A DNA stretch of 64,000 nt from Haloprofundus halobius (lineage in GTDB: Archaea > Halobacteriota > Halobacteria > Halobacteriales > Haloferacaceae). A program made the translations under genes and the position numbers. The notes beneath the pieces are model-generated. The model saw nothing but the letters and a program-made list of their open reading frames with translations. It had not been told where the DNA came from and searched no databases. The DNA lies in contig NZ_CP083666.1 of assembly GCF_020097835.1 (NCBI RefSeq), positions 620,001-684,000 of the forward strand. Direction: 5' to 3'. Below are positions 47,047 to 47,219 of the stretch, piece after piece (position 1 is the first letter of the stretch; each line of letters starts with the position of its first letter).

Positions 47047-47110
47047 AAGTGCTCGGTAGGGGATTTGAACCACCGGAACTTCGCTACGCTCGTTCCGTAA
47101 TTCAAATCCC
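47047..47110 (-). repeat. Second copy of the tRNA-Glu tail with an inverted partial copy
   Basis: Positions 47047-47070 repeat 47142-47165 exactly (24 bp): G53 of the T-loop through three bases beyond the discriminator of tRNA-Glu. GGGATTTGAA (47060-47069) is mirrored by TTCAAATCCC at 47101-47110. Between them CGGAAC (47074-47079) pairs with GTTCCG (47092-47097) around a TTCGCTACGCTC loop. Same layout as beside tRNA-Leu. Confidence 0.8.
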
Positions 47111-47144
47111 TACGCTCGCATTTCACTCATCGAATTCGTGAAAG

Positions 47145-47219
47145 TGCTCGGTAGGGGATTTGAACCCCTGTCCTCGGCTCGAAAGGCCAAGATGATTGGC
47201 CGGACTACACCAACCGAGC
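47145..47219 (-). tRNA. tRNA-Glu (anticodon UUC)
   Basis: 75 nt on the minus strand with discriminator A. Acceptor GCTCGGT pairs with ACCGAGC, anticodon stem TTGGC/GCCGA encloses CTTTCGA giving TTC, and T-stem AGGGG/CCCCT pairs fully. D-arm GTAGTCCGGCCAATCAT is the typical archaeal Glu pattern. The tail (G53 to the 3' end) is repeated once immediately downstream at 47047-47070. Confidence 0.95.

Follow-up and report, generated by a model that had tools for sequence, protein, structure and literature searches.

What kind of event places the tail of a tRNA gene a second time behind that same gene? The question is raised by the tRNA-Glu(TTC) gene of the window, the stretch of 64,000 nucleotides analyzed here (C1:620001-684000 of the 3.95-Mb host genome). 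We describe this locus, then the class of units to which it belongs, and weigh how such units could arise.

Anatomy of the tRNA-Glu locus

Direct reading of the letters gave a 25-nt exact direct repeat, AAGTGCTCGGTAGGGGATTTGAACC at 47047-47071 and again at 47142-47166 (offset 95), which is also the top direct repeat of our repeat search. An earlier note on this DNA had described a 24-bp block, 47047-47070 equal to 47142-47165; this is correct, and the identity is in fact one base longer. Rfam places the end of the tRNA at 47145, so the tail copy spans G53 to 3 nt past the discriminator, in agreement with that note. The inverted block TTCAAATCCCTAC at 47101-47113, the hairpin at 47074-47097 formed by CGGAAC (47074-47079) and GTTCCG (47092-47097), and the 95-bp spacing had likewise been given with the right coordinates. 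Reading in tRNA sense, one passes the tRNA, its tail, X (TTTCACGAATTCGATGAGTGAAA), the inverted arm (GTAGGGATTTGAA), Y and the tail copy (Table 1). The unit is gene-free and, as single-stranded DNA, folds at z -2.8. When it was searched against Rfam, the gathering score was reached by the tRNA alone and no structured-RNA family matched.

Table 1. Coordinates in the window of the tRNA-Glu unit, its parts and the tail copies of two further units
Feature	Position	Strand	Remark
tRNA-Glu(TTC), resident target gene	47144..47219	-	ARAGORN; Rfam RF00005
Resident tail (+), G53 to 3 nt past discriminator; direct-repeat copy 1	47142..47166	-	
X, trailer hairpin TTTCACGAATTCGATGAGTGAAA	47121..47143	-	
Central spacer, facing acceptor-stem bases 65-72	47114..47120	-	partly paired with bulges in the tRNA-Glu unit
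Inverted arm, tail (-), GTAGGGATTTGAA	47101..47113	-	complementary to T-loop and T-stem of resident tRNA
Y, inner hairpin, type 3 (TTACGGAAC...GTTCCGGTG)	47072..47100	-	CGGAAC/GTTCCG stem, GCGTAGC loop
Displaced tail copy (+)	47047..47071	-	25-nt exact repeat of 47142-47166
95-bp unit missing at congener's empty site	47047..47141	-	circular permutations across the repeat equivalent
Tail copy, unit 2 at tRNA-Leu(CAA) 32976-33060	32867..32890	-	unit 107 bp; inverted arm about 32921-32933
Imperfect (19/21) tail copy, unit 3 at tRNA-Ser(TGA) 63537-63620	63389..63410	-	unit 148 bp; inverted arm about 63455-63469

Two more units lie in the window. At tRNA-Leu(CAA), 32867-32890 equals 32974-32997 with a spacing of 107 and the same boundaries as in the tRNA-Glu unit. 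The order of parts is the same in all three units, the one at tRNA-Ser being more decayed. The tail-copy architecture common to tRNA-Glu and tRNA-Leu holds, and it generalises to tRNAs of many isotypes.

The tail copy consists of tRNA sequence, as would be the case had a second, complete tRNA-Glu gene once stood here and left a remnant. Such an origin has next to no chance, and we discarded it. No 5' half of a tRNA is found within the 95 bp; the description as a tail-only duplicate with an inverted T-loop arm stands. The copy also begins sharply at G53, as do 95 of the 105 units of the class described below (1 nt of further identity in 95). Finally, comparison of the locus among relatives, as the earlier note had suggested, showed an empty site in the congener G003, which speaks against a relic; this site carries a flank matching that beyond the tail copy in the host (G000) and in its sister species G001, which have the unit in common. 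A different, diverged unit occupies the site in G002, and a 9-kb element in G004.

Distribution, structure and turnover of the class

The tRNA-Glu feature is a clean example of a real, large and dynamic class of units behind tRNAs. The host genome has 47 tRNA matches. We counted a tail copy when a tRNA's own 21-nt tail recurred with at least 17 of 21 matches in the 430 nt downstream; about a third of tRNAs carry one, 14 of 42 in the host and 18 of 45 in G001. In these two genomes no tRNA had its own tail upstream, and the tails of other tRNAs matched at 17/21 or better in none of 1768 comparisons, so the downstream copies are not due to chance. The core pattern GGATTYGAA-N(22-52)-GTTCRAATCC is present in 261 of 293 genomes of the host's order (80 of 87 genera), and its reversed control gave no matches. 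With a stricter pattern, matches were obtained in 63 of 82 genomes of the order vs 0 of the 311 from the rest of the phylum. A type-specific pattern run against all bacterial and archaeal genomes hit at least 80 loci; those listed belong to Halobacteria, except for one bin named only 'Euryarchaeota'. Among the strict matches, 105 of 113 lie directly behind a tRNA, covering 16 isotypes in proportions that are not unbiased because the sample was chosen by pattern, and 5 of the remaining 8 lie at contig edges. The units sit almost always on the tRNA sense strand, immediately downstream.

In viral contigs, the type-specific patterns had no matches, and the loose pattern hit mainly bacterial tRNA-Ser genes and one haloarchaeal-looking contig; the type-1 Y was not found in phages or plasmids. 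A word search of the literature, with most subscription papers outside its reach, returned no earlier description of the units, which apparently form a class undescribed before.

Each unit comprises the tail, a trailer hairpin X, an inverted T-loop arm (GGATTYGAA) and a hairpin Y, after which a further tail copy starts from G53. Lengths are mostly 90-150 bp (median about 114 bp, IQR 100-132). The repeat typically ends at the tRNA 3' end, and tail identity is 100% in about half of the 105 units. X is often similar to the natural trailer, which in G014 falls within the duplicated block (about 45 nt). The ends of Y are conserved across unrelated tRNAs and families, with KYA after the arm and GTRG before the tail (KYA...GTGG). 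Reading of the sequences, with no formal clustering behind it, gave four types of Y inner stem: TCAGGGA..GACCGTGG, GTAGA..GCGTGG, TACGGAAC..GTTC[AC]GGTGG (that of the window unit) and CCTGCCAG..CTGGCTCCGG. The orientation of Y is nearly uniform; the sole clear inversion that we saw is in the unit downstream of a tRNA-Asp copy of the host genome (L439, C1:2363450-2363524). In a tRNA-Phe array of the same genome (L388, about 3950-5090), a PF12706 metallo-beta-lactamase-fold (MBL-fold) gene lies inside the Y of one unit; this unit has flanking tail copies and is a possible gene-bearing cassette.

The arms are adapted to the tRNA that they follow. In 94% of units the arm is complementary to position 57 (A or G), vs 56% when the arms of other tRNAs are used, and the rare T-loops of tRNA-His (TTCGATT) and tRNA-Lys (TTCAACT) are matched by adapted arms. 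Pairing between arm and tail is above control at positions 63-64 and resumes at 73, from where it runs on into X; over bases 65-72, faced by the central spacer, class-wide complementarity is not above control. This gap may be selected just to spare the nascent tRNA a long antisense duplex.

When modelled as circles, units fold as a rod with a hairpin at each end (median z -4.9 for the sense and -3.6 for the antisense strand, 96 units). Y folds better on the tRNA-sense strand in 117 of 121 cases because of conserved T-G and purine-purine mismatches, and part of this bias may reflect shared descent. In 25 distinct 46-nt Y's, 99.2% of cells pair and 23 double changes occur, a number reached in none of 500 shuffles; the covariation score for the same Y's is 0.179 vs 0.079. 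T-runs, which follow the tRNA at 73 of 183 loci, are no guide to transcription of the unit.

Insertion and loss of units are well supported. Between the host and G001, whose orthologous tRNAs were paired by shared flanking words (less firmly where few words are shared), tRNA-His has 0 units vs 3, tRNA-Pro(TGG) 0 vs 1 and one tRNA-Tyr 1 vs 0; tRNA-Arg and tRNA-Lys differ as well. Deletion between the repeats is another possible source of an empty site; the different unit types found at the same tRNA in different genomes favor gain. Units also form tandem arrays of 2 to 6, with four identical units at one tRNA-Lys (L369). The tail copy is better kept proximally in 33 arrays and distally in 5, with 26 ties (p=4e-6), and the simplest reading of this preference is that new units enter beside the tRNA while older ones decay behind. 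As a separate observation, the loci L366 and L367 (G110, C1:10700-11500 and 3372400-3373200) show the same tRNA-Lys region near both contig ends, either as a terminal repeat or as an assembly overlap.

Origin of the units

With a probability of about 0.55, we propose that the units, seen only in Halobacteria, are non-autonomous, gene-free cassettes put into tRNA 3' ends by site-specific recombination. A cassette made of tail, X, inverted T-loop arm and Y would recombine into the tRNA gene inside the 3' tail (from the T-loop to position 73). The incoming tail would restore the tRNA and the previous tail would be displaced downstream; successive cassettes would enter next to the tRNA, with a decaying array of older ones behind. 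A repeat that runs from the T-loop to the discriminator is a signature of recombination within the tRNA tail, and, since the units are without genes, the enzyme would need to act in trans. The insertion is probably done by a tyrosine recombinase acting in this way; in archaea, such enzymes often use tRNA genes (PMC8371274). The DNA that reacts could be single-stranded and folded, its two paired boxes separated by an unpaired spacer over 65-72, like the integron attC or CTX-phi attP hairpin, a suggestion that we hold at less than even odds.

As for the enzyme, a single-copy XerA-like recombinase gene (C1:1072212-1073270) is carried by all 44 good genomes of the order and by none of the 77 outside it. 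This co-distribution amounts to one taxonomic split, and every core gene of the order would show it; it points to a candidate and is no proof. Among the eight PF00589 loci of the host, C1:1072212 is the one compared with NCBIfam, and its best match is the archaeal XerA model, below cut-off. We consider it unlikely that this core XerA-like recombinase of Halobacteria is the enzyme. The fuller picture, with tRNA genes as the platforms of a gene-less integron-like system and T-loop/tail-tuned, single-strand-folding cassettes inserted and arrayed there by the host XerA-like recombinase, is tentative and on balance doubtful.

Other candidates were set aside. The recombinase at C1:27390 of the host is not universal (11 of 59 genomes). 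The PDDEXK_5 endonuclease PF11645 is present in only 20 of 59 genomes of the order and adjoins duplicated or intron-bearing tRNAs, not being found in units. Its gene (host C1:2362639-2363524, L410, L439; also L424-L438) occurs nearly always once per carrying genome, usually next to or between duplicated tRNA-Asp genes, next to tRNA-Pro, Asn or Met, or apparently within an intron of tRNA-Lys, and it resembles a tRNA-gene homing endonuclease. The 9-14 kb tRNA-Glu elements of relatives, L078 (G004), L079 (G011) and L080 (G010), were rejected as a source of the units: their repeat of about 60 nt begins in the anticodon region, which makes them a different class. L078, the element that was read, has a PF00589 tyrosine integrase, and G011 seems to hold two elements in tandem. 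At tRNA-Gly(TCC), the host itself carries an integrase-encoding element of 14.3 kb (C1:about 1683000-1697370; L401, L417), the repeat of which begins upstream of the T-loop. Searches of phage, plasmid and viral collections and of the flanks of host tRNAs found no autonomous element with the same ends, no integrase beside a unit, no excised or circular form and no donor. No transposase-bearing element sharing the unit ends was found in these collections or within 20 kb downstream of host tRNAs.

In one genome, units at tRNA-Arg and tRNA-Lys have the same Y and a similar X, the tail and the adapted arm being specific to each of the two. Such sharing is not accounted for by simple cut-and-paste, which would bring the wrong tail. 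Gene conversion or palindrome self-templating may adapt the arms afterwards, and for this reason templated in-situ duplication stays the main rival of inserted cassettes. During replication or repair, the tail would fold back on hairpins and be copied alternately (tail +, -, +), and the repeated palindrome would then maintain itself by template switching and gene conversion. The fit of the arms to the resident tRNA, even with rare T-loops, the trailer-like X with the trailer-containing block of G014, and an identical Y next to different tails within one genome would all follow from such copying. However, Y ends conserved over unrelated tRNAs and families, together with the fixed orientation of Y, imply common descent; pairing is lost exactly over 65-72, unlike in plain fold-back copying; and the units are restricted to one order. 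We judge this explanation improbable.

The better folding of the sense strand, the compensatory changes and G-U pairs in Y, and a position nearly always directly downstream on the tRNA sense strand are what one would see if the unit were transcribed behind the tRNA, with its hairpins serving in 3' processing or as a small RNA. A single-stranded DNA site that folds would, however, be expected to show such a strand bias too. Between close species, orthologous tRNAs may carry the unit or lack it, many tRNAs have none, distal copies decay and Rfam families do not match, so a functional RNA appears quite unlikely. We see still less reason to regard the units as scars of proviruses or plasmids that integrated at tRNAs and lost their interior, and give this a slim chance. 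Direct repeats of tRNA tails are a hallmark of integration, as in the Haloquadratum prophage with its 22-nt tRNA-Ala duplication (PMC3119063), and relatives carry large elements at this very tRNA-Glu. Against it stand the uniform length of the units and the same ordered hairpins at 16 isotypes in most families of the order; a viral or plasmid source was not found either.

If the cassette reading is true, many tRNA genes across a whole archaeal order would carry tiny mobile DNA that repeatedly rebuilds essential genes. The units would then let single-strand site-specific recombination in archaea be studied in a natural setting. They would also account in part for the instability of tRNA flanks and att sites, and would give a reason for the palindromes at many haloarchaeal tRNA 3' ends. 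If they act as RNA instead, they would represent an uncharacterised tRNA-linked structured RNA family.

Comparison with known systems

MITE, REP and PATE-type elements are mobile DNA that is short, non-coding, palindromic and non-autonomous, and the units resemble them in these four respects. Unlike them, the units have a strict tRNA-tail site and tRNA-matched direct and inverted repeats, and apparently neither transposase ends nor the usual target duplication.

The archaeal elements that target tRNA genes by a tyrosine recombinase (SNJ2, pNOB8, SSV; PMC8371274) sit, like the units, at the tRNA 3' end, restore the tRNA and leave a tail repeat downstream. As in integrative elements, a direct repeat of the tail flanks the insert and relatives have empty sites (G003 for tRNA-Glu; tRNA-His and others). 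In contrast to SNJ2, pNOB8 and SSV, the units are about 0.1 kb long, contain an inverted T-loop arm and two hairpins, form tandem arrays and occupy many tRNA isotypes per genome. They have no integrase or cargo genes inside, except for the tRNA-Phe unit with its MBL-fold gene.

Integron attC sites are recognised as folded single strands (PMC4792948). By anatomical analogy, the units resemble integron cassettes in a palindrome whose structure is conserved over sequence, a strand bias and a putative box-spacer-box arrangement, and their arrays, like those of integrons, would grow beside a fixed site. The likeness to the attC fold (two boxes, unpaired spacer, strand bias) concerns architecture, with boxes deduced from pairing alone. 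Unlike in integrons, the target is a tRNA gene and not attI, the units are geneless and no integron integrase was found, one of the eight host PF00589 loci having been compared with NCBIfam. The attP hairpin of CTX-phi, a folded single strand integrated in trans by the host recombinases XerC/XerD (PMC3089051), offers another possible analogy; the units differ in being without phage or dif site, and the haloarchaeal enzyme is only a candidate. With no integrase or genes, the unit lacks a defining feature of ordinary integrative elements and is therefore not classed there. It behaves as a tRNA-targeted insertion would and has the look of a gene-less attC-type cassette, and we assign it to neither class.
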